64,000 bases of DNA. It comes from Haloarcula salinisoli (GTDB taxonomy: Archaea; Halobacteriota; Halobacteria; Halobacteriales; Haloarculaceae). The stretch spans positions 124,001 to 188,000 of the forward strand of contig NZ_RKLQ01000003.1 of NCBI RefSeq assembly GCF_019599405.1, written 5' to 3'. The position numbers were made by a program, and so were the translations under genes. The notes beneath the pieces were generated by a model, which was given only the letters and a program-made list of their open reading frames with translations, did no database searches and was not told the DNA's origin. Shown in pieces: positions 38,525-55,978 of the stretch (position 1 is the first letter of the stretch; every line of letters starts with the position of its first letter).

Positions 38525-38556
38525 AGAGGCCCCGGGTTCAAATCCCGGCGAGTCCA
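38525..38556 (+). repeat. attR: 32-bp copy of the tRNA-Ala 3' end
   Basis: Identical to 27292-27323. Base 38524 (T) and base 38557 (C) differ from the tRNA flanks (A and T), which defines the repeat ends. A further partial copy (TCCCGGCGAGTCC) lies at 38633-38645. Confidence 0.9.
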
Positions 38557-38588
38557 CTTCCCTCGTTCTTCGCTGCGCTCGAACTCGG

Positions 38589-38849
38589 TCAGTGGACTCG
38601 CCGTAGTTCGCAAACGCTGCGCGTTTGCTCACTCCCGGCGAGTCCTTCTGTGTCGCGAGCAAACTCACGAGAGAGGCGGATGTGGACCCCCTGAATGCTT
38701 TGCGCTTGCTCGGTCCCGGCCAGAGTGAAGACGGTGCTGCCGAGGTCGTAGCCGAGCATACTGATTTGTACGATACCGTTGGTTACGAATGCAATGGCAG
38801 TGAAGACGATGCCAGCCAGTGCGTCCTCGATGTCGATCTTTCCAAACAT
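38589..38849 (-). pseudogene. Truncated small membrane protein fragment
   Basis: The first about 43 residues ([20 protein letters not shown] onward) form a plausible membrane protein start with one and a half hydrophobic helices. After that the frame changes to unrelated composition and runs into the partial att repeat. This reads as a gene cut by recombination at the right edge of the element. The function of the parent is unknown. Confidence 0.5.
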
Positions 38850-38971
38850 TGTGGAGTGGCCGCCGTAGCGGCCATATCCGGCGCGTGCAGTCTGCTGGCA
38901 AGCAAGTACCGATCCCGGGAGTCTCTGGAACCACCCGAAAGGTCTAGTAGATGGACTGCAGGGCGGATTGT

Positions 38972-39103
38972 ATGGAGATGCGCAAAATCTCTCCGGCCGG
39001 TGGCTGTGTGACCGTCTCGATTCCGATTGATGACCTGCGCGAGCGCGAAGTTGTTGACGACGATGGCGAGCTCGCCGGGAACCACTGGGCGAAAGTTCAG
39101 TAA
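38972..39103 (+). CDS. Short AbrB/SpoVT-type DNA-binding domain protein, probably truncated
   Basis: A 43-aa open frame starting [18 protein letters not shown]. The motif RKISPAGxxVTVSIPxDDLRER is the beta-hairpin swapped-hairpin signature of AbrB-like domains. The sequence stops at HWAKVQ just after the domain; complete relatives that I recall are longer. It is too short to assign a role. It lies in the scar zone between attR and the next accessory genes. Confidence 0.5.
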
Positions 39104-39189
39104 ATTGGCGACGACGAAGAAGGCAATTGCTGATTAGAGCTAGTCAGTCCATGATATACGATTGCACTGAGAATATAGGTGTACTATAC

Positions 39190-39978
39190 TCACCAGCGCA
39201 ATTTGCTCATGATTCTATGCTCCCAATAGGGTTTTTTATTCAAAGCTCTCAAATCGGTCTCAATATCACTAGCTATTTGACTGGTTTCTTTTCGTAACTC
39301 CTGATACTCGTCAATATCGTCCACATAATCCAGTATCTCTCCCTGGAAAATCAATCTGCTCAAAGCCGAACTCCAGTTGCTAACTCCCTTTTCTTTCCAA
39401 GCATCAACAAAAGTCTTTCCTGAGAGGTGCATGTGAACCTCTTCATTTCCAGAAGAGGTTTGGTAATCCTTTTCGGCATATTCGTCCTCAACATCCTGAA
39501 AATCTTCTTTATTCTCGCACGCCCACTTTCTGAAGGACTTGTATTCGTACCTATATGCCTCAGGAGTATACTCTTGCGAATCAAATCGAGAATATATAGA
39601 AGAGAGTATCTGGAGTTCTCCATCTTCCATTTTCAAAATATCATTCTGATTGACTTGGAGAAAAATCTCCTCCCTACTTGATAATCGGTTTTCTGCCTCC
39701 GCGATATTTGACAGGTTCTTTTTATATCGGGCTATATCCTCTCTTGTAGACTCTTTTAGCAAATCCATCGTCGCCTCTTCTATTTCATTTGCCTTCGAAA
39801 TTGGATCTCCAGACAAATCTGGAAAGTCATTATTTGCGGAACTTTTGATTTCGTCTAAAAGTGGCAATGCAACTTTTTGTCTAATACGCTTTTGCTTCTC
39901 TCTCAAAGATGCGAAATATGTCGCAGCTGATGCTCCTAAAACTGCTGACAAAATAGGTATAAGAATACTCTCAACCAT
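39190..39978 (-). CDS. Membrane-anchored coiled-coil hypothetical protein
   Basis: A 262-aa protein. The N-terminal helix (ILIPILSAVLGASAATYFASL, residues 5-25) is followed by a basic stretch (REKQKRIRQK) and then a mostly helical, very AT-encoded domain. No motif is recognised. An N-terminal anchor with a cytoplasmic helical body is seen in several defence-associated proteins, but nothing specific supports that here. Codon use differs strongly from core genes, so it is an acquired gene. Confidence 0.6.
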   Translation of the reverse strand: MVESILIPILSAVLGASAATYFASLREKQKRIRQKVALPLLDEIKSSANNDFPDLSGDPISKANEIEEATMDLLKESTREDIARYKKNLSNIAEAENRLSSREEIFLQVNQNDILKMEDGELQILSSIYSRFDSQEYTPEAYRYEYKSFRKWACENKEDFQDVEDEYAEKDYQTSSGNEEVHMHLSGKTFVDAWKEKGVSNWSSALSRLIFQGEILDYVDDIDEYQELRKETSQIASDIETDLRALNKKPYWEHRIMSKLRW

Positions 39979-40129
39979 TTACTATTTCCATTTTTATATC
40001 CTCCCTTAATCTTTGGCCCATTTAGAACTAGCGGAAGAACCAATTGTAAGTATCTATCCCCGTATGAATTATGATAGCTGAGCCGAGACTCCTATGGGCC
40101 GTAGCTCGACAGAAACGAATCCCCGAAAT

Positions 40130-40159
40130 TGCACACACGACCGAGTAGCTGTGTGTGCA
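40130..40159. repeat. Inverted repeat upstream of the RHH gene
   Basis: TGCACACA at 40130-40137 and TGTGTGCA at 40152-40159 form an 8-bp palindromic pair with a 14-nt spacer, about 130 nt upstream of the small RHH-like gene. It may be an operator or hairpin. The 310-nt gap 39979-40289 contains no other feature I can support. Confidence 0.4.
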
Positions 40160-40289
40160 GAACCGGGCCGCGTGGGCTGTGGGCTTCGGCTCGATCTCTG
40201 CTGCGCGGGCGGTTTCACTCGAAATAACCCCGATATCGCGGTTCCAGTTCGACGAAAAAACTAGATGCACAGGGTACGTGTGCAATTCT

Positions 40290-40598
40290 ATGCGCCTGCG
40301 AATGACTGACCATCGGGAACGGATGCTCGACGCACTCCTCGATGCGACCGGCGAGAACACGAAGAGCAAGGCGATAGACAAAGCGGTGAACCACTACTGC
40401 CGGTGTGCCGGGGCGAATCCTGCCCATCCGACTGGGACGTATGAGGAGCTGATGGAAAGAGCAGTAGAGCAAGGAAGCTTAACTCTGGACGAGATAGCCG
40501 AGATACTGTATACTGATAGTCTCCCTGTGAGGCACAACAGAGTACTTTATTGGGAGTGGACCTTCGTGAGTTCGTTAATTGGTTTCTCCAGTAGCTGA
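40290..40598 (+). CDS. Small ribbon-helix-helix-like protein
   Basis: A 102-aa protein starting MRLRMTDHRERMLDALLDAT. The N-terminal 40 residues match the pattern of haloarchaeal RHH-type proteins (a beta strand MRLRMTD, then helix-turn-helix ERMLDALLDATGENTKSKAI). A GTYEELMERAVEQGSLTLDEIAEIL segment follows. The last about 20 residues run into the convergent operon end and may be a read-through after truncation. Possible transcription regulator; family assignment (DUF7386-like) is from memory. Confidence 0.5.
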   Translation: MRLRMTDHRERMLDALLDATGENTKSKAIDKAVNHYCRCAGANPAHPTGTYEELMERAVEQGSLTLDEIAEILYTDSLPVRHNRVLYWEWTFVSSLIGFSSS

Positions 40599-40600
40599 AG

Positions 40601-41071
40601 TCAAACTTCGGACCCTAAAGGACTCTCTTTCAATTTCTGAATGATATCATCTTCTTCAATTTCGGAGCCTAGCCTATCTTTATTCACTTTTGCTATCAAT
40701 TGTAGCTCTGTCTCTCGTTGTTGAGTCTGATCTTTTTTGAGAATACGTAGACCCTCTTTCAGCCCTCTCGCTACACGTGAGCCTTTCTCGGTTTCTTTGT
40801 AGATATGAATATTACCATCATCCTCTTTATACACAAGTTGAAGGTCGTCATAAGACTCCAAGATGCTGGAAAACCCCGGATCCATTGGTCCCCAGTAGAC
40901 TCGTCTGAAGGGCCAATCTTCTCGTAGGTTTGCCGATTCGCGGAACTCTACCAGTGACTTATGATACTTTTTTGCTCCATCTATTTCTCCATCGAATTCG
41001 TCTAACATCAACAGACGATAGTGAAAAGCAGCCTCATCATTAGGGAGTACTTCCTCAGGGATGTCAGTCAT
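40601..41071 (-). CDS. Third gene of ABC-ATPase operon (winged-helix-like, hypothetical)
   Basis: A 156-aa soluble protein. The start at 41071 overlaps the ATPase stop (ATGA); an ATG three codons upstream is possible. The middle part (KYHKSLVEFRE, FRRVYWGPMDPGFSSILESYDDLQLVY, YKETEKGSRVARGL) has the layout of a winged-helix domain: helix, recognition region with a conserved W/Y-GP turn, wing, then TEKG. It could be the middle or adaptor component of a multi-gene ABC conflict system. This is inference from order and size. Confidence 0.6.
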   Translation of the reverse strand: MTDIPEEVLPNDEAAFHYRLLMLDEFDGEIDGAKKYHKSLVEFRESANLREDWPFRRVYWGPMDPGFSSILESYDDLQLVYKEDDGNIHIYKETEKGSRVARGLKEGLRILKKDQTQQRETELQLIAKVNKDRLGSEIEEDDIIQKLKESPLGSEV

Positions 41072-42798
41072 GCTCCCCATTCCTCCAGACTGGTTTGATC
41101 TATTGTTGCACGTTTTAGCTTAAGAATCCGTTCGCTAGGGAATTCTTCTATCATAGCTTGATCTGATGAAGTAATGACTATTTGCTGGTCTACTGACTTT
41201 AGGTGTTCTAAAGCCTGAAATTTTATATCTTCATCTAAATGTGAGAAGGGCTCATCCATCACTATGACCGACCAGTCTATTATATCAGTAGCATCCGCGT
41301 GGCTATTCAAGGCAAGTGCGAAAGAGATATTCAGTAACTGTATTTCTGAATCGCTCAACTCTCCTCGCCGATTGTAAATCCGGCGTTCATCTTCACCAGG
41401 TAATCCAATTGCACCGTTGTCTGGGTTGATTTCTACTCCTCTTCCTAATTCCCCTGATAGCATGTTGAAATGCTCAGTCCATGTTTTTTCGAAGTCGTTC
41501 AGAGCTCTTGTATAACTATCAGCCCGTATTTCATTCAGCTCTCGTTTAAAATCGTCAATATCTGAGTCTATCAGCTCTCGTTGCTCTTCAGTTTTGGATA
41601 GATCATCCTCAATTTCACTCAAACGGGCTTGAGAATCATTCAGCTCCGTTTCGACCTGAGACAAGTTTGTACGTGCTTCCTCCAAAATTTCGGAGGTTGT
41701 CATTCCCTGTTCCAGCCTATCTACGGCTTTGGAGTTTAGATTGGAAAGTTCCGGTTGCCTCTCCTCTATCTCTCTAATTTCCGTATTGACCTCTTCTAAT
41801 TCATTCTCATGCTCGTCTATTTCTTCAGTTAGTTTCTCTGGTCGCCCTTCTGCCTCTAACTTCTCACTTCTGAGATTTTCTTTAAGACCCTGTATCGAAT
41901 TCTCCTGATTGCAGAATGGGCATGTATCGTCTGAATGTATCCGATCTTTGGCGGTTTCCGAATTGACACGTCCTTCGCATACGGGACAGACAAACTCCTT
42001 CATCGCTTCAACGATTATATCTTCAATTTCAGTCTCAAACCGTTGAAGCTCGTCTATCTCTTCTTCCTTCTCAGATATCTTACGGTTAAGCCCTTTCCTC
42101 TTTTTATATAGGCGATCAACTTCCTGTTTTAAGCTCTGATCTCGAGCCAACGTGTCTCTTATTTCGTCTAGTCTTCCACTCTCAGCTATTTCAATTAGTT
42201 CCTGCCATTCATCCTGTTGCCTTTCTAACTTGGAAATCGTCACTGTCAGGCGATTATGCCGATTTTCTAAGCGTGACTGTTTATCGGATTTCTCTACTAA
42301 TCGAGTATTCTTTTCTTCGATTAATGACTCAAGTTCCTCGACCCGGCGTTTGGAACTACGATTCGTTACACTTAGAATCAAATCTAATCGCTGCTTCCGA
42401 CTAAGTGTGGTCAGCGGTAATTGATCAAGATGGGAGTGTAAGAAGTGATGTCGGAGTATTTGCGTTTCGCCAACACGCCCTCTTAGCTTTTCTTCTGCGG
42501 TATCTTTTGTGTAAACCTCTCCATTCCATTCATATTTCCGCTTAGGCTCTGCACGAGTAATTCGTGAGCCATCGGTGAATGTAACGGACATTTTGTTACC
42601 CCCTCCCGGTCTAATGCCAAGCGACTCATCAAGCCCAAGAACACCATACAATAGGGCGTTGAATGTTAGACTTTTTCCACTTTGATTAGGTCCATGAATG
42701 AGAACAGATTCTGAATTCAGTTCGTGCAACTGAGGGGTTTGCTCTTTTGTATAGATATCCTGGGCAAACCTTCTAATCTTGAATCCGCTAATGTTCAT
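41068..42798 (-). CDS. SMC/Rad50-like ABC ATPase with zinc-ribbon coiled coil
   Basis: A 576-aa protein. It has an N-terminal ATPase half with Walker A GPNQSGKS (residues about 35-42) and a Q-loop LHSHLDQLPL, then long coiled coils (about 150-450). These are interrupted by a four-Cys element CPVC..CPFC (about residues 270-297) resembling a doubled zinc hook. The C-terminal half has a signature LSDSEIQLLNISFALAL and Walker B VIVMDEPFSHLD. It is shorter than housekeeping Rad50 and has no Mre11 neighbour. It overlaps the upstream membrane gene and the downstream small gene. Likely the motor or sensor of an anti-plasmid or anti-virus operon; that role is inferred. Confidence 0.85.
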   Translation of the reverse strand: MNISGFKIRRFAQDIYTKEQTPQLHELNSESVLIHGPNQSGKSLTFNALLYGVLGLDESLGIRPGGGNKMSVTFTDGSRITRAEPKRKYEWNGEVYTKDTAEEKLRGRVGETQILRHHFLHSHLDQLPLTTLSRKQRLDLILSVTNRSSKRRVEELESLIEEKNTRLVEKSDKQSRLENRHNRLTVTISKLERQQDEWQELIEIAESGRLDEIRDTLARDQSLKQEVDRLYKKRKGLNRKISEKEEEIDELQRFETEIEDIIVEAMKEFVCPVCEGRVNSETAKDRIHSDDTCPFCNQENSIQGLKENLRSEKLEAEGRPEKLTEEIDEHENELEEVNTEIREIEERQPELSNLNSKAVDRLEQGMTTSEILEEARTNLSQVETELNDSQARLSEIEDDLSKTEEQRELIDSDIDDFKRELNEIRADSYTRALNDFEKTWTEHFNMLSGELGRGVEINPDNGAIGLPGEDERRIYNRRGELSDSEIQLLNISFALALNSHADATDIIDWSVIVMDEPFSHLDEDIKFQALEHLKSVDQQIVITSSDQAMIEEFPSERILKLKRATIDQTSLEEWGA

Positions 42799-43390
42799 TA
42801 CTAATCTCCTTTGGCGTCCTTTCTATCGCTCGTTTTAATTTGTTCATTGATTTGATCACAAGTCCGGTACATACAGTAGCTACCAACAATCCTCCAACTA
42901 CACCAAGTATACCAAACTCAAACCCAAGAGCGAATGGAGCTGTAAGACCAATAAGAGCGAAAGATGCTCCGGTTGTAACTCCTTCTTGAGCCTTCTTATC
43001 TAATCTATCAATTATTTCTTCGCCACCACCGGAATACCAATCAGTAAAATCACCTCCTTCGTTCAATTCTAACCTCATACGAGCAATTGCAACATGTTGC
43101 TCGAACCTCTCTTCGATTATATCGTTTGTAAACAACCTCGCCATCTCGGACAAAATACTTGCAGGTGCCAGCGCAAACAATATCAATATCCTAGAATATG
43201 TGCTGGCACTACTCTCAATCACAAACAAGTATATCAGGAGTCCAGAGTAGGCTGTTAAACTGCCTAACCCTGCAATCTCGTCTTGGTTAAGAGATTTTAT
43301 TGAAGCCACAATTAGATGGGACTGTATTCTTGTTGTGCGCCAAATTGGATATGTCCATCTAATACAATAAACATTCGGGCTGATTATCAA
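42788..43390 (-). CDS. Membrane protein, first gene of the ABC-ATPase operon
   Basis: A 200-aa protein. Two hydrophobic helices near residues 43-60 and 67-84 (GLGSLTAYSGLLIYLFVIES, RILILFALAPASILSEMARL) precede a charged middle segment. Two more follow at about 140-158 and 160-178. It overlaps the ATPase start by 11 nt. No family is recognised. A membrane protein in an ABC conflict operon may be the killing effector or anchor. The start could be an internal Met, since the first 25 residues are atypical. Confidence 0.6.
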   Translation of the reverse strand: MIISPNVYCIRWTYPIWRTTRIQSHLIVASIKSLNQDEIAGLGSLTAYSGLLIYLFVIESSASTYSRILILFALAPASILSEMARLFTNDIIEERFEQHVAIARMRLELNEGGDFTDWYSGGGEEIIDRLDKKAQEGVTTGASFALIGLTAPFALGFEFGILGVVGGLLVATVCTGLVIKSMNKLKRAIERTPKEISNEH

Positions 43391-43512
43391 ATACTAATGT
43401 CCAGATATCAAAACAGTGTAGTCCTATCTTTCTAAGTACGTTTCAACACTTTCCACATGGAGATGACACTGATTGCTTGGCTCACCTATATTGCTTGGTT
43501 ACTACGCATCAA

Positions 43513-43626
43513 GATACCGCCGAGCAGTCCCAATTATATCTTAATTCTGGAATTCCTGCGAAAGCGGCTCCACCAACTGCGTCTACGCAGCATTTGATAC
43601 CGTAATCAACCCGACCCACAGAAGCG
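43513..43626 (-). pseudogene. Decayed copy of the PhiH1-repressor-like winged-helix gene
   Basis: This stretch aligns base by base with 45480-45595 of the intact gene. 23 bases around 43551-43573 differ at a single position, and the 38 bases before that agree at about three quarters of positions. After base 43573 the copy has lost 2 nt relative to the intact gene, which breaks the frame. It lies in the intergenic region just upstream of the SIR2 gene, in the same orientation as the copy just downstream. Confidence 0.75.
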
Positions 43627-43643
43627 AAAGTTTACCTCTCCTT

Positions 43644-43655
43644 GCTTATATCAAA
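43644..43655 (+). promoter_or_regulatory. Putative promoter of the SIR2 gene
   Basis: GCTTATATCAAA lies about 40 nt upstream of the ATG at 43691. A purine-rich GAGGGTAG at 43677-43684 may act as ribosome binding site. The operon on the minus strand starts 300 nt to the left, so the two units are divergent. Confidence 0.45.
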
Positions 43656-43690
43656 GATTATGCGTATTTACTTCAAGAGGGTAGCAAGAC

Positions 43691-45403
43691 ATGGTTGATA
43701 ACGATATGACCCTTACCTTTTCTCTTAGGAACAATCGAGGCGTCTATGCGCTTTTATTAGGTTCTGGTGTTTCTATGGAGGCAGGAGTTCCCACTGGCTG
43801 GGGCATTGTCGAAGATTTGATCCGCGATCTGGCCACAGCAGAGGGTGAAGAACCTACCCCAGACCCATTTCAATGGTATGAGGACAAGTATGATCAAGAG
43901 CCAGCATATGACGAGTTGATGGAACAAGTCGGTCCATCGAAAGAAGATCGGCAATCTATTCTTCAACCCTACTTCGAACCGACTGAAGAAGAGCGTGAAG
44001 AGGGTATCAAAACACCCAGCGAAGCGCACAGAAGCATCGCCTGGTTGGTTGATGAAGGATATATCAACATCATCATCACAACCAATTTCGATCAGTTGCT
44101 TGAGCAAGCTCTGCGCGAAAGGGGGGTCAATCCAGTAGTCATCACGAATGCAACCTCCGCTGCAGGTGCGGAACCACTTGCTCAACAGGACGCTGTAATC
44201 CTCAAAATCCACGGCGATTATATGGAGACGAATATCAAAAACATCAATTCCGAGCTGCAATCCTACGATGAAGAAATCGAAAGTCGGCTGAACCGTGCGT
44301 TTTCTGATTATGGTCTCATAGTTTGTGGATGGTCTGCTGAATGGGACCCTGCACTACGCGAAGCGTTACTTGAATGTGAAAGCCGACGATACTCTACGTA
44401 CTGGGCATATCATGGTAGTTTGGAAGAACAGGCTGAACGTCTAACAGAACATCTCAGTGCTGTTCCGGTGGAAATTGATGGTGCCAGTAAATTCTTTTCG
44501 GACCTTAAGGAGAGGGTACAAGCTCTGGAAGGCGCAGAATCGGGAGCACCGTTAACCAGAGAAGTTGCCAGAGAGCGAGTCAAACGGTACATGACTCGTG
44601 ATTCTAGAAAAATAGACCTCTCGGATTTAATAAGAGACGAAAGAGAGAGGGTCTACTCTCAAGTCGTTGATGAAGAGAGATTTCCGCTCAATATAGATGG
44701 AACTGAGGGAAACATCGAACAAAGGCTGAGTACTTATGAAAATATGGTAGGTACATTGATGGTAGCGGTAGCCACCTGCGCATACTGGGGACCAGAAGTA
44801 CCGAATCCTGCGACTAATGATATATCTGAAACAGTCCGACGCTTAGGTTCCCCAACCGCGCCTTCTGGGAGGCGAAAGGACCTCTGGGATGACTTGAGGC
44901 AATATCCCGCTACAGTCATGTTGTACGGAATCGGGACAGCAGGCGTCGCCGCAAAAAATTGGGATCTGATAAAGAGACTTCTAATTGAGACAGAGACTCA
45001 GAATGGTCGCGGGATAGAAAGACCAGTAGCTGAAGATCTCAATCCATGGAGAGTCGGTAGTAGAATTAGTCGGAGAGGTGGTAATAAATACCTTCGACGG
45101 CGAATAAATGATGTTCTTTCAGAATTGCTCGATGACCTTATTCCAGATGAAACACGTTACGATAGGTGTTTTGCGCAATTTAAAATCCTCGCAGATTTAG
45201 CGTTGTTAGATTTGTCTGAAGACTCTCGATTTAGCCCTGATCATCTCCCTGTAATATATCCTGTCTCTGCTATTGAAGAACTCGCGACGGATCTGGAAGC
45301 TCAGGGGGAAAATTGGGGACCAATACAATCTGGGATGTTCAATAGCTCCGTAGATAGGGCAGAATCACTTCTTGAGGAGCTACAAGAGATAACCCGATTC
45401 TAA
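43691..45403 (+). CDS. SIR2-domain protein (predicted NADase defence effector)
   Basis: A 570-aa protein. The N-terminal SIR2 domain (residues about 10-275) has LLGSGVSMEAGVPTGWGIVE (NAD-binding GxGxS loop), ITTNFDQLLEQAL (catalytic Asn region), VILKIHGDY (catalytic His) and LIVCGWSAEWDPALREALL. This combination is that of SIR2-like NAD+ hydrolases of anti-phage systems such as Thoeris ThsA, DSR and SIR2-HerA, not of protein deacetylases, and no Zn module is visible. The C-terminal 290 residues are unassigned and may sense the trigger. It is divergent from the ABC-ATPase operon and flanked on both sides by copies of one winged-helix gene. AT-rich codon use marks acquisition. Confidence 0.82.
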   Translation: MVDNDMTLTFSLRNNRGVYALLLGSGVSMEAGVPTGWGIVEDLIRDLATAEGEEPTPDPFQWYEDKYDQEPAYDELMEQVGPSKEDRQSILQPYFEPTEEEREEGIKTPSEAHRSIAWLVDEGYINIIITTNFDQLLEQALRERGVNPVVITNATSAAGAEPLAQQDAVILKIHGDYMETNIKNINSELQSYDEEIESRLNRAFSDYGLIVCGWSAEWDPALREALLECESRRYSTYWAYHGSLEEQAERLTEHLSAVPVEIDGASKFFSDLKERVQALEGAESGAPLTREVARERVKRYMTRDSRKIDLSDLIRDERERVYSQVVDEERFPLNIDGTEGNIEQRLSTYENMVGTLMVAVATCAYWGPEVPNPATNDISETVRRLGSPTAPSGRRKDLWDDLRQYPATVMLYGIGTAGVAAKNWDLIKRLLIETETQNGRGIERPVAEDLNPWRVGSRISRRGGNKYLRRRINDVLSELLDDLIPDETRYDRCFAQFKILADLALLDLSEDSRFSPDHLPVIYPVSAIEELATDLEAQGENWGPIQSGMFNSSVDRAESLLEELQEITRF

Positions 45404-45411
45404 TTATTGAT

Positions 45412-45684
45412 CTAATCGCTGTAGAGAACACGGCTCGGCGTCGGCCGTTGAAGATTCGACACATCGAGCTCACCTGCTAGGTACCGCTGGCCAGCTCCAG
45501 TGATATCGTAGTTCTGGAACTCCTGCGAAAGCGGCTCCACGAGGTGCGCCTGCGTAAGCATATGACACCGCTCACGAACCCGGCCCACAGACGCCCACAG
45601 CGACACCTTCCGGGCGATATACTTCGGCGTCGACCAGCCTCCAGCACGCAGTAGTTCGAGTATCCGTTCACCCAGCGGGACCAT
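45412..45684 (-). CDS. PhiH1-repressor-like winged-helix protein, copy A (5'-truncated by stop codon)
   Basis: A 90-aa protein. MVPLGERILELLRAGGWSTP, VGRVRERCHML and ITGAGQRYLAGELD match the intact paralogue at 46666-46947 (roughly two thirds identical by eye). An in-frame ATG at 45708 would encode MSRNPAQ, then TGA, then MVPLG. The paralogue has MARRPAEW followed by MTPL, so the conserved Trp codon TGG has become TGA, and translation must restart at the next ATG. Likely a DNA-binding repressor; it may still be functional from the internal start. Confidence 0.7.
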   Translation of the reverse strand: MVPLGERILELLRAGGWSTPKYIARKVSLWASVGRVRERCHMLTQAHLVEPLSQEFQNYDITGAGQRYLAGELDVSNLQRPTPSRVLYSD

Positions 45685-45728
45685 TCATTGAGCGGGGTTG
45701 CGTGACATGATTCAGGGGGGCAACGTCG

Positions 45729-45833
45729 TCAGCTATTGATTCCGGGGCCGTCGGCAGCACTGCTCTCGTCGTTGGAGGAACCGCAACCGTTCATATAGCG
45801 TTCTTTCTCGGCGTCGTACTCGCGCTTAGGTTC
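45729..45833 (-). pseudogene. C-terminal remnant of winged-helix gene, copy B
   Basis: The minus-strand frame reads EYDAEKERYMNGCGSSNDES and ends at a stop 20 nt before the old start of copy A. It resembles the end of the intact paralogue at 46959-47279 (KYDAEQGRYIGDDDE). Nothing upstream of 45833 matches the rest of that gene, so only the tail survives. Order and orientation (B then A) equal those of the intact pair. Confidence 0.65.
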
Positions 45834-45901
45834 CCCCCATCAGTAAGAAACTCTCAAATCTAAACATTTACCGGTCAAAACCCCGGTCTCGGCCCTGTCT
45901 A

Positions 45902-46198
45902 CTACCGCATGAAATCCGGAAGTTCGTCGTTGTCTTCACGAGCAGCCTCGACTTCGTCCGGGTCGATACCCAGTTCACGGAGCGCTTCGCGCTCCTGTTC
46001 GGGTGTTTCGATCGGTTCCCCGATCTCACCCTTATGCAGTGCGACGGCTTCGTCGAGCATCTCCAGCGCCTCCTCGCGAGTCTCGCCCTGCGTGGTGACG
46101 CCGGTCTCGACGTCGGTGATGACCCACCCGTCGCCCTCGCGCCACATCCGAATCTCGTCCTCGTGGTCGGGCTCGCTGTCGCGCGTGGAACTCGCCAT
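45902..46198 (-). CDS. HicB-like antitoxin-type protein (orphan)
   Basis: A 98-aa protein. The core MWREGDGWVITDVETGVTTQ followed by GETREEALEMLDEAVALH is the partial RNase-H-like HicB fold. The C-terminal 35 residues are acidic and contain no obvious DNA-binding domain. A HicA toxin partner (a dsRNA-binding-like protein of about 60 aa) is not visible on either side. Orphan HicB-like proteins are frequent in haloarchaea. Confidence 0.75.
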   Translation of the reverse strand: MASSTRDSEPDHEDEIRMWREGDGWVITDVETGVTTQGETREEALEMLDEAVALHKGEIGEPIETPEQEREALRELGIDPDEVEAAREDNDELPDFMR

Positions 46199-46958: not shown

Positions 46959-47279
46959 TCAGCCGTCCACGCCGGGGCGTTCGGTCGCGTCCCCCTCGGT
47001 TTTCGTCTCGTCGTCATCGCCGATATACCGGCCTTGCTCGGCATCGTACTTACCTTCGAGGTAGGCCTCGCCCGCCTCTGAGAGGACGTAGACGCCGTTG
47101 GCGAGCGGGCGCAAGAGGCCGTTGTCGGCCAGCTTCGTCAGCCGTCGGGAGACCGACGACTTCGAGATATGTATCTCCTCGCGGTTCGCGAGCTCCGTCG
47201 GGGAGCCGTTCCCCTCCTCGCGGACGACCTCCAGAATCCTGTCGTCCCAGATTGTCATCCACGAGCCGGACTGTCTCAT
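46959..47279 (-). CDS. PhiH1-repressor-like winged-helix protein, copy B'
   Basis: A 106-aa protein. MRQSGSWMTIWDDRILEVV opens like copy A'. SPTELANREEIHISKSSVSRRLTKLADNGLL (about residues 25-55) is a clear winged-helix recognition segment, followed by the wing NGVYVLSEAG, YLEGKYDAEQ and an acidic tail. It resembles the phage phiH1 repressor family. It is first in the B'-A' pair. The divergent hydroxyacid dehydrogenase starts 246 nt away, with no clear operator visible in between. Confidence 0.78.
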   Translation of the reverse strand: MRQSGSWMTIWDDRILEVVREEGNGSPTELANREEIHISKSSVSRRLTKLADNGLLRPLANGVYVLSEAGEAYLEGKYDAEQGRYIGDDDETKTEGDATERPGVDG

Positions 47280-47525
47280 TGCTCTCGGGTACGGAATACG
47301 GTGTTGTCTGTGCTGGTAATGTGCCGTTTACCACACGGCATCCCACAAACAGAAAACCGTTGCATTCTTACAACAGCACCACGTTGTAACCAACGCGGGG
47401 TGCCCATACCGGGGGCGTTCCGGACGGGGGAGTGGCACACCGCCAGCGGACACACTCGGGAGGGCTGTCAGACGGGGGGCGCTGGAGACTGTACACTTTT
47501 CACGGCGTCCCGCCAACACGGGTCC

Positions 47526-48500
47526 ATGACTGATAGGTGGGAAGTCCTTTTGCCGAAAGAAATCGACCCGTCGGGGCCGGAGTCCATCGCGGACTTCGCC
47601 GACTGTACCGGGATGGACGAGTACGACAGTTACGACGACGCGCTGGCCGACATCGCGCGCTACGATGCCGTCATCGTCCGCGTCGCACCGCTCACCGCCG
47701 AGGTCATCGAGCGGGCGGAGAAGCTGAAAGTCATCGCGAAACACGGCGCCGGCCTCGACAACGTCGACATGGACGCGGCCGCTCAGCACGATATCGTCGT
47801 CTGTAACACGCCCGGCGCGAACGCCCAGTCCGTCGCCGAACACGCCATCGCCTCGCTGTTTGGCCTGCGCCGCAACCTCCACACCGCCGACAGACACGTC
47901 AGGTCCGGTGAGTGGGAACGGGCGGCCTTTACCGGGCGGGAGCTCAGCAACGACACGCTCGGGCTGTACGGCTTCGGGAACATCGCACAGAAGACGGCGG
48001 CGCTGGCCACCGGCATGGGGATGCGCGTCGTCGCCTACGATCCGCGCAAGCCCGACGAGTACTTCCCGGAGAGTGTCCAGCGCGCCGAGCGGTTCGAGGG
48101 TCTGTTCCAGCGCTCCGACGCGGTGAGTATCCACGTCCCGCTGACTGACCACACACACCACTCTATCTCGACGGCGGAGCTGTCGGCACTCGGGGAACAC
48201 GGCGTCATCGTCAACACCGCTCGCGGCGCGGTCATCGACGAGGCGGCGCTTGTCGACGCGCTCGAGGCCGGCACCGTCGGCGGGGCGGCACTCGACACGT
48301 TCGAGTCCGAGCCGCCGGGCGAGGACCATCCCCTCTATGGCCGTGACGACGTGTTGTTGACGCCCCACGTCGGCGGCGTGACACGGCAGGCGCTGGCCAG
48401 GATGAGCCGGCAGGCCGCGGCGAACGTCCGGACCGTCTACGAGGGCGGGATACCCGACTCGACGCGGAACACGGCCGCGCTGTCGGAGGCCGACGAATGA
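47526..48500 (+). CDS. D-2-hydroxyacid dehydrogenase (phosphoglycerate dehydrogenase-like)
   Basis: A 324-aa protein; the start at 47526 gives MTDRWEVLLPKEID. The NAD-binding motif is GLYGFGNIAQKTAAL (GxGxxG, about residue 147). The catalytic Arg lies in NTARGAVIDEAALVDAL (about 230), the Glu in DTFESEPP (about 260) and the His in LLTPHVGGVT (about 280). There is no ACT domain, so it is unlikely to be the regulated SerA. It overlaps the aldolase gene by 4 nt. The pair suggests metabolism of a 2-oxo or 2-hydroxy acid such as a sugar-acid derivative (inference). Confidence 0.88.
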   Translation: MTDRWEVLLPKEIDPSGPESIADFADCTGMDEYDSYDDALADIARYDAVIVRVAPLTAEVIERAEKLKVIAKHGAGLDNVDMDAAAQHDIVVCNTPGANAQSVAEHAIASLFGLRRNLHTADRHVRSGEWERAAFTGRELSNDTLGLYGFGNIAQKTAALATGMGMRVVAYDPRKPDEYFPESVQRAERFEGLFQRSDAVSIHVPLTDHTHHSISTAELSALGEHGVIVNTARGAVIDEAALVDALEAGTVGGAALDTFESEPPGEDHPLYGRDDVLLTPHVGGVTRQALARMSRQAAANVRTVYEGGIPDSTRNTAALSEADE

Positions 48501-49282
48501 GGACCGAGAACGGGTTGCGGCGGGCGCTCGAAGCCGGTGAGACGGTCTTCGGCGCGAGTGCAGAGACCTTCTCGCCGACGGTTGTCGAGACGCTTGGCGC
48601 GGTCGGCCTGGACTACGTCTGGCTAGACTTCGAACACGGCGGGCCCAGCCCCTACGACAGCACCGCCCTAGAAGAGCTGACACGGGCTGCAGAGGCGGCC
48701 GATATCGAACTGCTGGTCCGGCTGCCCAAACCCGAGCCGGCGCTCATCAGGAAGGTGCTGGATGCCGGTGTCCGGACCATCCTGCTGCCCCGCATCGAGA
48801 CCGCCGCGGAGCTCCGGGCCGGTGTCAGGGCGGCCCACTTCGCGTACGACGGTGCGGTTGGCGACCGCGGGGTCGGCGTGGGTCGGTCGGGCGAGTGGGC
48901 GGGCTACGTCGACAGCTACGTCGGCGGCGAGGACAGCGAGGTGCTGGTCGGGACGATGATAGAGAACCAGCGCGCCGTCGACAACATCGAGGAGATTCTC
49001 TCGGTGCCCCAGCTGGGCTTTGCCTTCGTCGGGCCGGCGGACCTCTCGATGTCGCTGTCGGGCGGTGACCCGCTCGAAAAGAACACCGAGGCTGTCTCGG
49101 CGGCTATCGACCGCACGCTCGAAGCGTGTCTCGACGCCGGGGTGCCGGTCGGGCGAATCCGCAACGGCGTCCCGGAGGCCCGGGACGCGGTCGACGCCGG
49201 CTACCGAATCGTCCGCATCGGCGGCGACACGGCGTCGATACGTGAGGTGCTGGGGGCGCGACTCGACGAGCTACGGGACTGA
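48497..49282 (+). CDS. HpcH/HpaI family aldolase
   Basis: A 261-aa class II (divalent-metal) aldolase of the HpcH/HpaI/GarL type. It shows DYVWLDFEHG (about residue 37), LLVRLPKPEPALIRKVLDAG, ILLPRIETAAELRAGVRAAHF, the metal-ligand Glu in MIENQRAVDNIEEI (about 155) and FVGPADLSMSL (about 178). The enzyme would split a 2-keto-3-deoxy acid to pyruvate and an aldehyde. The ATG overlaps the dehydrogenase stop, forming a two-gene operon. Confidence 0.9.
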   Translation: MRTENGLRRALEAGETVFGASAETFSPTVVETLGAVGLDYVWLDFEHGGPSPYDSTALEELTRAAEAADIELLVRLPKPEPALIRKVLDAGVRTILLPRIETAAELRAGVRAAHFAYDGAVGDRGVGVGRSGEWAGYVDSYVGGEDSEVLVGTMIENQRAVDNIEEILSVPQLGFAFVGPADLSMSLSGGDPLEKNTEAVSAAIDRTLEACLDAGVPVGRIRNGVPEARDAVDAGYRIVRIGGDTASIREVLGARLDELRD

Positions 49283-49968: not shown

Positions 49969-52900
49969 ATGGACCCGATAGCCGCTCTCGCCGAGTCGGC
50001 CGACCCGACCATGGTTCTCTCCGGACTCGCGGTGTTCCTGGCTGTCGTCTGGACGTTCACTAATCTCTACAACTACTATCCCGTCGTCCGGTCGATCGCC
50101 GCACACCTGCTGACCGGGACATCGACCGACGACGCCGCGTTTCTGGGCACCGACCGGGTCGAGATAATTCACGAGGACGCGTATCCGGAGATCGACGTGT
50201 TCATTCCGGCCTATCAGGAACACGAGGTGATTCATCAGGCGATACGGTCGATCCGTGATACCGACTATATACAGGAGAAAATCAACCTCACCGTCCTGCT
50301 CGAACCGGACGACGAGGAGACTATCGCCCGTGTCGAATCACTCCAGGAAGAGGTCGACCTGGACCTCCTGCTGGTCCCCGACGAGTACCCCGGCTCCCCG
50401 AACAAACCGCGGGCACTCAACTACGGGTACGAGCAGACCGACGCGGATATCGTCGGCGTCATCGACGCGGAGAACGTTGTCGCGCCCGACCTCTTCGAAC
50501 GCGTCGCCTCCGCGTTCGTCGCCGAGGGTCGAGATTACGTACAGGGCACCGTCGACATGGCAAACGAGGACGACGGCTGGAAGAACCTGCTGTTCCGTGC
50601 CGAATACGGCTACTGGTACCGGTTCATCGTCCCGGCGTTCAAGCGCCTGGGATTCCCGATACCGCTCAGCGGGACGACGTGTTTCTTCGGCCGCGAGACC
50701 CTCAAGGGCGTCTCCGAGCAGCGCAGAGAGCGCAAGGGGAGCCCGTGGAGCCAGGAAGACGAAGCGTGGCTGTCCGAACACGGCCTCTCCGGGGTCACGC
50801 CGTGGGACCCGGAGAACGTCACCGAGGACTTCGAGGTCGGGCTCGCGCTGTGGCTCACCGACGAGAACTTCGGACTGGTCGACTCCACGACTCGGGAGGA
50901 GTCCCCACAGGAGCTGGGGAACTGGCTCAAACAGCGCACCCGGTGGCAGAAAGGAAAACTGTACACGTTCCTCGACTTCTTCAGGAACCCTGCCGGGTCC
51001 TCGAAGGAACGCGCCCATCTGCTGTGGCAGTCGTTCCTCCCGCACGTCGGGCCGTTGAACGTGCTCGGAATCTTTTTGCTCATCGGTATCGGGTCCCTAA
51101 TCGGCTTCACCCCGCAGAACCCTATCGTCGCCGGTATGTTGCTGTTCACGTCCGTGTTCTTCTTCGCCGGGCTCTGTTCGTTCGGACTGGGGTACTGGTT
51201 CGTCTCGACGGAGACGGGTGTCAAGAAGCTACTCGGGCTAAGCATCGTCGTTCTCACCGTCCCGTTCTACTGGGTGTTCCAGTGGGCGGCAGATATCCGT
51301 GCGTCCAAGCAGATTCTCCTCGGTGACCTGGGCTGGGAGAAGACTGTCCACGAGAATCACGGGCGGTTCGAACTGCTACAGGACCCGACAGACGCAGCTT
51401 CGGACGCTGCCAACCCAGCGGCTGAGGCCGCTTCGAATACGGTCGCGGGCGGGGGGACCTCGACGCCAGCCGCGGCCGGAGGGACCTCGACGGCGACCAC
51501 GGCCGGGGGAACCTCGACGCCAACCGCGACCGGGGGAACCTCGACGCCGACCGGGGCCGGGGGGAGTTCGACGTCGGCTATGGCCGAGGATACGTCGTTC
51601 GGCCACTCGGTCAAGCGCGCCGTACAGAACCACTGGCTGTTGTTCCCGGTGCTGTTGGTCGCGGTCGCTCTCCGGGCCCCAAACCTGAACCGGAGCCTCT
51701 GGATCGACGAGATATACTCCGTGTCACACCGGGGGTCGATGAGCGTGGGCAACCTCATCACGACGACGTCGGACCCGCACCCACCGCTGTACTATCTGAC
51801 GCTGAAAGGGTGGATGACGGTCTTCGGCCAGTCAGAGGTCGCCGTCCGGGCGCTCTCGCTCCTGTTCGGTATCGCCTCTATCGGTGCCGTCTATCTGCTG
51901 GGCCAGCGGCTGTACGACCGCCACGCCGGACTGTTCGCGGCGCTACTGATGACCGTCTCGTCGTTCCAGATACAGTACGCACAGACCGCCCGGATGTACA
52001 CCATGCTGGTGTTCTTCGGCACGCTGTCGACGTACTTCTTCGTCCGCGAGTTCGACGACCACAGCGTCGTGAACCGGCTGGGGTACGTGGCCATGACGGT
52101 CGGGATGCTCCTGACGCACGTCTACGGCTCGTTCGTGGTGCTCGGACAGCTGTTGTATCTCGGGGTACGGTTCGCCAACGACTGGGATTTCGCGCAGGTG
52201 AAACAATGGACTGTGACCCAGGGTATCGCCGGCTGTCTGTTCGCCCCGTGGTTCGCGTTCGTCGCCGCCCCGAGCTACCTCCTGGGCGAGGGCCAGGAGA
52301 CCCGCTGGCTCTCGGAACCGGGCCTGGCGAAACTCCGACAGGTCCTGCTTGCGTACTCGGGCGTGCCGACCAACTACCCCAAGTACGCCGTCGGGTCGGT
52401 GTCGTTCCAGGTCGGCGTGCTGGCCGCGAGTATCTTCTTTATGGTCTTTCTCTGGCGTCTCTACGCGGAACGGGGTCGGGGACTCCCGGTCTCCGGGAGC
52501 GCCCTGTCGGTCGCACTGCTCGCTGGGCTCGTCGGCGCTCCCTACGTCGTCTCCAATCTGGTGATTCCGCTGTTCGAGGTGCGGTACATGATATTCGGGT
52601 TCGTCGCAGTGGCGTTGCTCGTCGGGAAGACTATCGCCGATATCGACTACCGACCCGGCCAGACGGTCGTGCTGTTCGTTGTCCTCGGGCTGTTTCTTGC
52701 GATGGTTCCGAGCTATCACGCCGCCTCGCCGTCCGAGGACTGGGACCAGACCGCCGAACTCATCGAAGGCGACCTCGAGGAGGACTCGCTCATCGTCTAC
52801 AATCCAGCCTACACGAAGGACGCAGCGGAGTTCTATCTCAGCGACGACGCACTGTCGACGGCGGACAGTGCCGCGGTCCAGCCCGGCAGGGGGCCCCCCG

Positions 52901-53118
52901 ACGGGCTGACGAACACCACCCACGAGCAGGTGTGGGTCGTCAACATCCGCGGGGAGAACCTGGGGGTGACCGACCGCGCGCTGTCGGACAGCCACACGGT
53001 GGAGCGAAACGACACCGTCGGGAACACGGCTATCCGTCTCATCGAGTACCGGAAGACGGGCGCCACCACCGCGGACGGTGGCACCGCCAACGCCACCACG
53101 GAGGGGAACGATGACTGA
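49969..53118 (+). CDS. Fusion of processive-type GT2 glycosyltransferase with GT-C (PMT/ArnT-like) glycosyltransferase
   Basis: A 1049-aa membrane protein (a GTG four codons upstream is possible). Residues about 1-480 form a GT2 with an N-terminal helix, DVFIPAYQEHEVI, VIDAENVV (DxD-like), the TED of ENVTEDFEVGLAL, the QxxRW motif KQRTRWQKG (about 322) and several helices, as in cellulose or hyaluronan-type synthases. Residues 495-539 are five 9-residue repeats of GGTSTPxxx. From about 555 on it is a GT-C enzyme with a first helix, the catalytic SLWIDEIYSVS Asp-Glu (about 575), HPPLYYLTLKGWMTVFG and many helices. One chain therefore carries a nucleotide-sugar enzyme and a lipid-sugar enzyme. 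It overlaps the next GT2 gene by 8 nt. Confidence 0.85.
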   Translation: MDPIAALAESADPTMVLSGLAVFLAVVWTFTNLYNYYPVVRSIAAHLLTGTSTDDAAFLGTDRVEIIHEDAYPEIDVFIPAYQEHEVIHQAIRSIRDTDYIQEKINLTVLLEPDDEETIARVESLQEEVDLDLLLVPDEYPGSPNKPRALNYGYEQTDADIVGVIDAENVVAPDLFERVASAFVAEGRDYVQGTVDMANEDDGWKNLLFRAEYGYWYRFIVPAFKRLGFPIPLSGTTCFFGRETLKGVSEQRRERKGSPWSQEDEAWLSEHGLSGVTPWDPENVTEDFEVGLALWLTDENFGLVDSTTREESPQELGNWLKQRTRWQKGKLYTFLDFFRNPAGSSKERAHLLWQSFLPHVGPLNVLGIFLLIGIGSLIGFTPQNPIVAGMLLFTSVFFFAGLCSFGLGYWFVSTETGVKKLLGLSIVVLTVPFYWVFQWAADIRASKQILLGDLGWEKTVHENHGRFELLQDPTDAASDAANPAAEAASNTVAGGGTSTPAAAGGTSTATTAGGTSTPTATGGTSTPTGAGGSSTSAMAEDTSFGHSVKRAVQNHWLLFPVLLVAVALRAPNLNRSLWIDEIYSVSHRGSMSVGNLITTTSDPHPPLYYLTLKGWMTVFGQSEVAVRALSLLFGIASIGAVYLLGQRLYDRHAGLFAALLMTVSSFQIQYAQTARMYTMLVFFGTLSTYFFVREFDDHSVVNRLGYVAMTVGMLLTHVYGSFVVLGQLLYLGVRFANDWDFAQVKQWTVTQGIAGCLFAPWFAFVAAPSYLLGEGQETRWLSEPGLAKLRQVLLAYSGVPTNYPKYAVGSVSFQVGVLAASIFFMVFLWRLYAERGRGLPVSGSALSVALLAGLVGAPYVVSNLVIPLFEVRYMIFGFVAVALLVGKTIADIDYRPGQTVVLFVVLGLFLAMVPSYHAASPSEDWDQTAELIEGDLEEDSLIVYNPAYTKDAAEFYLSDDALSTADSAAVQPGRGPPDGLTNTTHEQVWVVNIRGENLGVTDRALSDSHTVERNDTVGNTAIRLIEYRKTGATTADGGTANATTEGNDD
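51451..51585 (+). repeat. Five 27-bp in-frame repeats encoding the GGTSTPxxx linker
   Basis: Five consecutive 27-bp units, each starting GG(G/A)GG(A/G)ACCTCGACG or close to it. They encode GGTSTPAAA, GGTSTATTA, GGTSTPTAT, GGTSTPTGA and GGSSTSAMA. The units keep the frame and form a flexible, possibly O-glycosylated Thr/Ser-rich linker between the two enzymes. Confidence 0.85.
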
Positions 53119-53878
53119 CCCGTCCGTCGGCGTCGTCGTCCCCGCCTACCGGCCGGACGTGGCCCAGCTCCGTGGCTACCTCGAACGCATCGATGAAGAA
53201 CTCGGGCCGGCGTCGATACTGGTCGAACTCGACTCGCCGCGTGAGGAGACAGTGGCAGCGCTCGCCGACACCGTGGCCCGCGTCGAGTCTGTCCAGCGCC
53301 GTCGCGGCAAGGGAGCGGCGATAACGACAGGGTTCGAGCGACTGGAGACTGACGTACTCGCCTTTGCCGATGCCGACGGCGCGACGCCGGTCGACTCGTT
53401 CGAGGACGTCCTCGACCCGGTCCTGCGTCGCGACGCGGAACTGGCTGTCGGCTCGCGACGCCATCCGGAGTCGGAAATATCGGACCAGCAGACGCTGCTC
53501 CGGCAACTGCTGGGCGACACGTTCAGCTGGCTCGCCGGCACGCTCCTCTCGGCCCGGCTCCACGACTACCAGTGTGGCGCGAAGGCCGTCGACGCGGAGA
53601 GCTGGCACGATATTCGAGGACACCTGTGTGAACCGGGGTTCGCGTGGGACGTCGAACTCGTCGCTATCGCCGGTGCGATGGACCTGTGCATCGAGGAAGT
53701 CCCCATCGAGTGGGAGGACCAGCCCGGCTCGACCGTCTCGCCGGTCCAGGATTCGCTCGACCTCTTTCGCGCCCTGCTAGCAGCGCGGAAGCGCTCGAAA
53801 GCGCTCCGGGACGACCGGTTCAACAGCACTGGCGCCGTCCGGGACAATCAAGAGACGCCGCTTATCAAACAACAGTGA
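53111..53878 (+). CDS. Glycosyltransferase family 2 (dolichyl-phosphate sugar transferase-like)
   Basis: A 255-aa cytosolic GT-A enzyme. The start at 53111 gives MTDPSVGVVVPAYRPDVAQL. It has RRRGKGAAITTGFERLETDVLAF-type features (GKGAAITTGF about residue 65), the metal-binding FADADGATP (DxD, about 84), SRRHPES, DYQCGAKAVDAESW (about 152) and GFAWDVELVAIA. These match DPM1/GtrB-like enzymes that make polyprenyl-phosphate sugars. It sits between a GT-C-containing fusion and GtrA, so it probably makes the lipid-linked donor that the GT-C domain uses. Confidence 0.88.
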   Translation: MTDPSVGVVVPAYRPDVAQLRGYLERIDEELGPASILVELDSPREETVAALADTVARVESVQRRRGKGAAITTGFERLETDVLAFADADGATPVDSFEDVLDPVLRRDAELAVGSRRHPESEISDQQTLLRQLLGDTFSWLAGTLLSARLHDYQCGAKAVDAESWHDIRGHLCEPGFAWDVELVAIAGAMDLCIEEVPIEWEDQPGSTVSPVQDSLDLFRALLAARKRSKALRDDRFNSTGAVRDNQETPLIKQQ

Positions 53879-54345
53879 GTCTCACTGATACCGTCCCAGA
53901 CCGGCTCGAACCGCTCCTCTCGGGGGTCCGATTCGGCCAGTTCCTCTCGGTCGGTGTCGTCGGTGCCGTCAGCGACACCGTCGTCCTCACGACGGCCACG
54001 CTCGTCGTTGGACTCCCGCAGCTGTGGGCCAAAGCCGCCGGTATCGAGACGGCGATTCTGGTCATGTTCCTCGTCAACGAGCACTGGACGTTCGCCAACC
54101 GGGGGAAGTCGGGACGCGGTGCGTTCCTGAAACGTCTCGGGAAGTCACACCTCGTCCGCTCGGGCGGCGTGACTATCCAGCTCCTCGCCTTCGCCGGCCT
54201 GACGCGGTGGGTCGACGTGTCCTTTGCCGTCGCCGGAATCGACCTCTGGTTCCTCGCGGCCAGTCTCCTCGCCATCGCGGTCGCTATGGGCGTCAACTAC
54301 GCCTTCGAGAGCATCTTCACCTGGCAGGTCCACCGCGACGGGTAG
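53875..54345 (+). CDS. GtrA-like membrane protein
   Basis: A 156-aa protein with four membrane helices, starting with GTG at 53875 (overlapping the previous stop as GTGA). RFGQFLSVGVVGAVSDTVVL and FLVNEHWTFANRG are GtrA/DPMS family signatures. GtrA-type proteins help flip or position polyprenyl-linked sugars. It is the third gene of the operon. It ends 3 nt before the convergent glucanase gene. Confidence 0.88.
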   Translation: MSLTDTVPDRLEPLLSGVRFGQFLSVGVVGAVSDTVVLTTATLVVGLPQLWAKAAGIETAILVMFLVNEHWTFANRGKSGRGAFLKRLGKSHLVRSGGVTIQLLAFAGLTRWVDVSFAVAGIDLWFLAASLLAIAVAMGVNYAFESIFTWQVHRDG

Positions 54346-54348
54346 CGG

Positions 54349-55698
54349 TTACTGGCCACGTATTTGCTGGCGGACCCACTCGCCGGTCTCGGTGAGGCTG
54401 TCGGTCGTCCAGTCGTCCGTGGTCCCCTCCTGCCAGATGCCGGACGTGCGCCAGTCGTCGGAGTAGCTCCAGAACGCCCAGCTGATGTCGTTGTCCGAGA
54501 GGATATCCATGAACGCCTGCGTGCTGTCGAAGTCACTGGCCCCGTCGCCGCTGGCCTCCATGCTGCCACATTCGGTGACGAAGATGGGGAGCTCCTGGGC
54601 GGCGTCGGCGAGCTGGTTTCGCTCCCACTCGCCGTGGGTGGCTGCGTAGAAGTGGAAGGCATACAGGAGATTGTCACCCTCGACCGGGTTGTCGATTATC
54701 TCCTGGGGGCCGTCGGCGCCGATGTCGGCGAGGCCAAGCGAGGACCAGCCCCGGGTTCCGACGACGATCGGGCTCTCCGAATCGTGGCCGCGGATAATCG
54801 GGATGATGGTTTCGGCGTACTCCTTTACCGAGGCCCAGTCGACGTCGTTCGGTTCGTTACAGATCTCGAAAATAATGTTGTCCTTGTCGGCGTGTTCGGC
54901 GGCCATCTCGTCGAAGAACCGCTCGGCGTGGTCGAGGTTTTCCAGCGGGTCGCCGGGGTCGTGGATGTGGAAGTCGATGATGGCGTACATCCCCCGGTCG
55001 GTGACTGCCTCGACTATCTGGTTCACTTCGTCGGTAAAGCCCTCTGGGTCGGTCTCGTACCCGCCCTCCTGGATGTACATCGCGACCCGACAGAGGTCGG
55101 CCGTCCAGCCGTCCGCCAGCGCGTCGAGCGCGTCCGGTGTGAGGAACTCGTCCCAGCCGTACCACTGGATTCCGTGTGTGCTCATTCCGCGTAACTGGAC
55201 GGGGTCACCGGCTGCGTCACAGAGTGCAGTCCCGTCGACCTGTAACTGGCCGTGGCGGTCGACCGGCGTCTGGCCGTCGATACTGTCGCTCTCCTCGTCG
55301 TCACTCGAGTCGCTCGACCCGATTCGTGTCCAGAGGTCACTCTCCGCCGCGGGTTCGTCCCCCTCGGTCCACCAGTTTGCCTCCCAGTCGTCGCCCTCGT
55401 GAGTGACGCGGACGCCCCCCCTGTAGACGCCGTCTGCCGTCCACGCGGGATACCCGTCGGTCCCCGACTCCTGGCCGACTCGACCCCACACTGCGACGGT
55501 GTCGGCTGGCTCGTCACCCTTCGTGTACCAGTACGCTCGCCAGACGTACCCCTCGTGACTCACCTGGTCACCGTCGCGGTACGCCCTGTCGGACTCCCAC
55601 GCATCGACTGTCTCCGTGGCACCGACAACTGTTCCCGTTGCGGACAACCCGCCCAGCGCCGTGACGGCACGGAGGAAACTCCGCCGAGTATCTTTCAT
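54349..55698 (-). CDS. Secreted GH5 family endoglucanase with two CBM5/12-like modules
   Basis: A 449-aa protein. The ATG at 55698 gives a twin-arginine signal MKDTRRSFLRAVTALGGL. Two carbohydrate-binding repeats follow: DAWESDRAYRDGDQVSHEGY then RAYWYTKGDEP (about residues 32-75), and YPAWTADGVYRGGVRVTHEG then ANWWTEGDEP (about 82-125). A Ser/Asp linker leads to the GH5 barrel with VQLRGMSTHGIQWYG, catalytic acid ICNEPND, HFYAATHGEW and nucleophile IFVTECGS. The Tat path is usual for haloarchaeal exoenzymes. It is convergent with a GT2 synthase operon, so a role in trimming or releasing the exported glucan is plausible; breakdown of external cellulose or chitin-like polymer is the alternative. 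Confidence 0.9.
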   Translation of the reverse strand: MKDTRRSFLRAVTALGGLSATGTVVGATETVDAWESDRAYRDGDQVSHEGYVWRAYWYTKGDEPADTVAVWGRVGQESGTDGYPAWTADGVYRGGVRVTHEGDDWEANWWTEGDEPAAESDLWTRIGSSDSSDDEESDSIDGQTPVDRHGQLQVDGTALCDAAGDPVQLRGMSTHGIQWYGWDEFLTPDALDALADGWTADLCRVAMYIQEGGYETDPEGFTDEVNQIVEAVTDRGMYAIIDFHIHDPGDPLENLDHAERFFDEMAAEHADKDNIIFEICNEPNDVDWASVKEYAETIIPIIRGHDSESPIVVGTRGWSSLGLADIGADGPQEIIDNPVEGDNLLYAFHFYAATHGEWERNQLADAAQELPIFVTECGSMEASGDGASDFDSTQAFMDILSDNDISWAFWSYSDDWRTSGIWQEGTTDDWTTDSLTETGEWVRQQIRGQ

Positions 55699-55978
55699 AA
55701 CAGCGGGGAGCGTGTTACCGGGTATAAATTGCGAGCCCAAGTTATCAAATGTAATAATAACTGCCGGATAATTCATGCAAAGGTGGTGTTAAATCCGCTT
55801 ATATTGCGTTCTGTAGCGACACTCCGAATTCATGCTCTATTTCAGTATCTAATAACCACGGGGCGATGTGGGTCCAAACAGCGGCCACTGGCAGACGGGC
55901 TCGTCGACGGTCTGTGTCGCGGTCCAGCAGATATCGGCGCTATCGGAACCCCCCTCGCAGGCGTTCCTCGACGCACGA

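Follow-up and report, generated by a model that had tools for sequence, protein, structure and literature searches.

The window, meaning the whole stretch of 64,000 nucleotides analysed here, which is haloarchaeal by its nearest relatives, contains a gene whose product is, by its sequence, an NfrB/BcsA-like processive GT2 glycosyltransferase joined through a low-complexity linker to a PMT/ArnT-like GT-C glycosyltransferase. In the reading that we favour, and hold to be moderately probable, this protein would work as a two-sided machine, where the GT2 half polymerises a glycan at the inner face of the membrane and the GT-C half adds side groups at the outer face from a lipid donor made by neighbouring gene products. 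All the parts are of known kinds, and the fusion arrangement itself is unreported in the searched literature, which included few subscription journals and held nothing relevant on either a GT2/GT-C fusion or a haloarchaeal cellulose synthase. Mycobacterial Ppm1, in which an apolipoprotein N-acyltransferase is fused to a polyprenyl-phosphate mannose synthase, likewise unites a GT2 and an outer-face membrane enzyme in one polypeptide, but there the GT2 makes a donor and is joined to an acyltransferase, unlike in the fusion protein.

Table 1. The fusion gene, its parts and its neighbours in the window (feature, positions, strand, basis)
GT2/GT-C fusion gene	49969-53118	+	single uninterrupted frame, 1049 aa
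GT2 half, residues 1-457	49969..51339	+	Pfam PF13641/PF13632, motifs, hydropathy, secondary structure, Foldseek, NfrB alignment
Linker, about residues 458-547	51340..51609	+	Gly/Ser/Thr/Pro/Ala-rich, low-complexity; Tandem Repeats Finder and pLDDT
GT-C half, residues 548-1049, polytopic, PMT/ArnT-like	51610..53118	+	Pfam PF13231/PF02366, motifs, Foldseek
GT2, polyprenyl/dolichyl-phosphate hexose synthase-like, 255 aa	53111..53878	+	PF00535
GtrA-family membrane protein, presumed lipid-linked-sugar flippase	53875..54345	+	PF04138 9.2e-21
Secreted GH5 cellulase, two CBM5/12 modules	54349..55776	- (convergent)	PF00150 7.1e-52, PF02839 two stretches

The frame starts either at the ATG at 49969 or at a GTG 12 bases upstream and in frame (49957), and runs to the stop at 53118 with no in-frame stops, whereas the other two frames contain 23 and 5; GC3 is similar in both halves (0.83 and 0.87). 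Pfam assigns residues 73-329 to Glyco_tranf_2_3 (PF13641, 8.2e-28), well over the curated cut-off, and residues 604-762 to PMT_2 (PF13231, 1.1e-14; 55.4 bits against a gathering score of 26.1). An AlphaFold2 model built on a shallow alignment of 8 reached a mean pLDDT of 63.7 and a pTM of 0.47, a low to middling confidence that gives no reliable information on the relative placement of the halves. With this modest-confidence model, Foldseek matched the GT2 half best to the bacterial cellulose synthase BcsA (5ej1, 8.7e-11), and also to hyaluronan synthases (HAS 7sp7, 6.9e-10), and the GT-C half to ArnT (5f15, 1.7e-6); a sequence search of the PDB was too weak to place the GT-C half. That one polypeptide combines a processive GT2 with a GT-C had been claimed in the earlier note, and the single open frame, the Pfam assignments, the motifs and the Foldseek matches confirm it. 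The domain search and the model that it had proposed assign both halves to the expected families, and the possibility that it had set against itself, a C-terminal part outside the GT-C families, falls with the PMT_2 and ArnT matches.

The same fusion occurs as a single ORF in six further loci from Halorientalis, Halorhabdus and two other Halobacteriales genomes. Scans of genome contigs found two paralogues in Halorientalis pallida (L002 and L004) and one locus in Halorhabdus amylolytica (L006); the Halorientalis MAG LUM.68 has one (L003), plus a partial copy ended by the contig edge (L005), and genome surveys added G016 (L046, 8510-11611) and G031 (L045). How far the fusion had spread was a question of the earlier note, and the answer is that it is rare and patchy, even inside a genus: it was found in 3 of the 83 sampled Halobacteriales genomes, in none of 53 further genomes of the same phylum, and in one of the eight genomes of the genus of the Halorientalis MAG, with an E-value limit of 1e-20 or 1e-15 in most surveys that distant versions may escape. 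In plasmid records the halves turned up only separately, each with less than 80% of the query covered. In the GT-C tree the fused halves fall into a single clade with good support (99/98); the GT2 tree is compatible with this but weak (56/85) and, unlike the GT-C tree, leaves a single fusion origin open. GT-C relatives also stand alone in G037, G081, G083 and other genomes.

The DxD-like, TED and QxxRW motifs that had been read in the N-terminal half are all found within its GT-A domain, as DAE at 166 (the DxD-like one, as in NfrB), TED at 285 and QRTRW at 322, and an alignment showed DAE, TED and Q..RW to be invariant across the window protein, NfrB and standalone relatives. One transmembrane helix lies at the N-terminus (about 13-35) and two follow the catalytic domain (about 360-378 and 386-412), after which the half ends in a W-x-K-T-x-H motif that continues into the linker. 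NfrB of E. coli K-12, the synthase of the N4 glycan receptor and our yardstick, can be aligned over the whole GT2 half as far as WxKTxH; like other DAE-type GT2 synthases it has the same three motifs and two helices after the catalytic domain, although its identity to the fused GT2 is only about 22%. It is a demonstrated exopolysaccharide synthase with a soluble c-di-GMP-binding domain beyond the WxKTxH point (PMC8669469). An additional domain is thus joined at this motif in both proteins, but where NfrB has a cytosolic MshEN c-di-GMP sensor, the fusion protein has a linker and an entire GT-C enzyme. Because curated score cut-offs are not reached, the fusion protein is not filed as CelA or PgaC: the window protein scored 35.3 of the 422 bits of the PgaC equivalog cut-off, and L045 scored 40.6 of the 699 bits of that for cellulose synthase (TIGR03030 CelA). 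By motifs and modelled fold, the GT2 half corresponds to the processive synthases of the BcsA/HAS/NfrB type, and it is predicted to make and extrude a polymer.

The GT-C half carries SLWIDE (with D580-E581) after its first transmembrane helix, DPHPPLYY/DPHPPLY at 602 and an RMY motif, and has a small soluble part at its C-terminus. D580-E581, which supplies the Asp-Glu pair expected of a PMT/ArnT-like GT-C, would lie in the first outer loop of this half and is predicted to face outward. The gathering score and the pair together place the half among PMT_2/ArnT-type enzymes. Its predicted use of a polyprenyl-phosphate sugar has one support, the donor-supply genes downstream. The idea that the two halves use different classes of donor fits both the domain assignments and the presence of these separate lipid-donor genes.

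Between the halves, the linker contains an in-frame tandem repeat (27 bp x 4.8, 51444-51573, by Tandem Repeats Finder) and is disordered in the AlphaFold2 model, with pLDDT below 50 at residues 447-552. It is the most variable part of the protein, and the other fusions have a shorter linker without the repeat. Since the c-di-GMP-binding domain of NfrB follows the same WxKTxH point, the linker and the N-terminus of the GT-C half would by analogy lie in the cytoplasm. This attachment point would suit a GT-C, which needs its first loop, here with D580-E581, on the outside. Given a cytoplasmic attachment point, helix 418-451 would probably have to be an interface helix. Hydropathy indicates a possible third transmembrane helix after the GT2 domain (421-439) in the window protein, L002 and L006, and none there in L003, L004, L045 and L046; were this helix to cross the membrane, the linker would lie outside, unfit for a normal GT-C, which counts against the reading that we favour.

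The gene directly downstream shares 8 bases with the end of the fusion gene and 4 bases with the gtrA gene that follows. Its GT2 product matches NCBIfam AglJ (3e-16) and the haloarchaeal dolichyl-phosphate hexose transferase (1.3e-8), both under their equivalog cut-offs, as well as a DPMS in the PDB (5mlz, 0.0022). L002 and L005 show this GT2-GtrA order too, with overlaps of 4 bases. In L006 a GT2-GtrA fusion protein and an epimerase are encoded ahead of the GT2/GT-C fusion gene, and L045 has a GtrA gene nearby. Within 8 kb of L003, L004 and L046 the searches made found neither GtrA nor GH, a point against the reading that we favour. Upstream of the fusion, on the same strand, overlapping genes for a 2-hydroxyacid dehydrogenase and an HpcH/HpaI aldolase (47169-49282) are probably unrelated and catabolic. 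A 2-hydroxyacid dehydrogenase shared with L003 was considered as a common upstream partner and rejected, the L003 gene being a phosphoglycerate dehydrogenase with PGDH_inter and ACT domains.

Archaeal GT-C enzymes function in S-layer N-glycosylation, and the GT-C half has weak NCBIfam matches that include a mycobacterial mannosyltransferase (MT1671) and Agl23. Both points would suit a GT-C half that, rather than placing side groups along the chain, starts, ends or anchors it, as a cap or as a link to a lipid or S-layer protein. We consider this unlikely: the locus has no feature specific to protein or lipid acceptors, and genes arranged in the Gtr manner typically serve to add side groups (PMC11127046). 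A maker of the lipid-sugar donor and a flippase are defining parts of three-component extracytoplasmic glycosylation (PMC11127046), and a lipid-linked sugar synthase, GtrA and a GT-C come together in the window locus as well as in L002 and L005. Synthase, flippase and GT-C are likewise encoded together in the known systems of this type (GtrA-GtrB-GtrX of Shigella/Salmonella; CsbB-GtcA-YfhO; GT136). However, the GT-C of the three-component system stands alone, whereas here, in a haloarchaeal host, it is fused to a chain-making synthase, so that, unlike in Gtr-type systems, one polypeptide probably also makes the acceptor chain.

The separate dolichyl-phosphate-hexose-synthase-like GT2 and GtrA also mean that the fused GT2 is not needed to supply the GT-C donor. 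This bears on a further alternative, somewhat less likely again, in which the fused GT2 makes a polyprenyl-phosphate sugar inside and passes it across the membrane to the GT-C half, with no polymer formed. Some GT2s do make such donors and GT-Cs need them, and a fusion of maker and user would be economical; but the operon already has its donor pair, TED and QxxRW are present in the fused GT2, which is closest to cellulose and hyaluronan synthases and NfrB, not to DPMS, and two haloarchaeal genomes (L043, L044) have GT2 relatives, 42-45% identical, that lack the GT-C half and carry a soluble C-terminal extension instead. This extension is repeat-like, with a W-T-W ... A-x-A pattern (L043:8466-10933, L044:11034-13636). 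Both standalone GT2s adjoin a DUF7139 membrane protein, which in L043 has a similar soluble tail and may form a regulatory pair with the GT2.

Cellulase genes accompany several of the fusions. The window GH5 has a Tat-like signal (RRSFLRA), begins just past the end of gtrA on the opposite strand and is the only GH5 in its source genome (G000). In L002, L005 and L006, too, a GH5 gene adjoins the operon or fusion (62-75% mutual identity, about 32% to the window GH5), and in G031 (L045) a GH10 lies directly downstream of the fusion, followed by the genome's only GH5. The LUM.68 MAG has no GH5 besides the neighbouring one, and H. amylolytica has one other; where a genome of 3.4-4.0 Mb has just one or two GH5 genes, the adjacency is hard to ascribe to chance, though the loci share descent. 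The window GH5 could nevertheless be catabolic, given its low identity to those of L002, L005 and L006 and its opposite strand.

Processive synthases regularly come with a secreted cellulase, as with the GH8 BcsZ and, in Clostridium, the GH5 CcsZ (PMC7710045, PMC11379886). The BcsA-BcsG/BcsZ system of E. coli and the clostridial CcsA/CcsZ pair resemble the window locus in having a processive GT2 and a cellulase. The nearest functional analogy for the tethering is E. coli BcsA, which recruits the outer-face modifier BcsG non-covalently and holds it at the synthase (PMC11379886). In contrast to these bacterial complexes, the modifier here is a covalently fused GT-C that would use a lipid-linked sugar; no BcsB, BcsC or PilZ was found in the flanking genes examined. 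An unfused parallel, found via its GT-C, comes from a Patescibacteria contig (L008:3203-10343), where the gene order is a DPMS-GtrA protein, a GH8, a cellulose-synthase-like GT2 (PF03552), a GT-C overlapping the GT2 gene, and a convergent GH6. We regard this cluster as a candidate decorated-cellulose operon of a small-genome bacterium. Its GT2 sits on a long branch far from the fused GT2s. These functions have therefore probably been brought together more than once, and such a recurrence speaks for a functional link.

From what is observed, namely the open frame, the domains with intact motifs, the conservation of the fusion, the order and overlaps of the operon and the families of the neighbours, we infer activities, processivity, topology, substrates and coupling as follows. 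The GT2 half, on the cytoplasmic face, would use a nucleotide sugar to build up a beta-linked glycan (cellulose-, mannan- or xylan-like) processively, and would extrude the growing chain via its own transmembrane helices. The downstream GT2 would load dolichyl phosphate with a hexose and GtrA would flip the product outward, where the GT-C half, with D580-E581 outside, could move the hexose onto the emerging chain as side groups, the linker holding the decorating enzyme at the synthase exit. The neighbouring secreted GH5 might then trim or free the glycan, the part that BcsZ/CcsZ play in bacterial cellulose systems. A chain made inside and decorated outside had been suggested in the earlier note, and the downstream donor GT2, GtrA and the adjoining cellulase-type hydrolases lend this support. 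More tentatively, we propose that one polypeptide polymerises a glycan inside and branches the same chain outside with a lipid-linked sugar, so that archaea would have a covalently coupled way of making a decorated cellulose-like exopolysaccharide. The decoration of polysaccharides at the outer face is usually assigned to separate enzymes; a fused synthase and GT-C, if this is true, would couple chain export directly to branching and offer a compact minimal test system, as well as a concrete haloarchaeal exopolysaccharide gene set (synthase-transferase fusion, Dol-P-sugar synthase, GtrA and cellulase).

One fusion departs from the others. In the GT-C half of G016 the catalytic pair lacks its first Asp (SLSGSE) and the RMY motif is gone, whereas the GT2 motifs are all kept, and the searches made found no GtrA or GH within about 8 kb. 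Such a state could suggest a chance or degenerate fusion with only one active half, which we judge improbable, more so than either alternative above, as the other six fusions keep both motif sets (RMY, D-E and PHPPLY in the GT-C half) intact or nearly so despite 36-59% identity to the window protein. Under two-sided synthesis and decoration, the G016 state would be expected if decoration is an optional add-on, lost while synthesis is kept. A frameshift or assembly join of two genes, which the earlier note had set against its own reading and to which the 27-bp repeat exactly within the linker might point, has a negligible probability and is ruled out by the orthologues, which are single one-frame ORFs in independent assemblies and lack the repeat.

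Elsewhere in the window, a low-GC3 stretch (0.35-0.6) at 29740-46000 resembles a defence island. It holds a 1299-aa type IIG restriction-methyltransferase, a tyrosine-recombinase-like gene (37385-38416), a DndD/LmuB-like ATPase (41068-42798) and a SIR2 protein (43691-45403) that matches the candidate system PDC-S65 at 4e-189.
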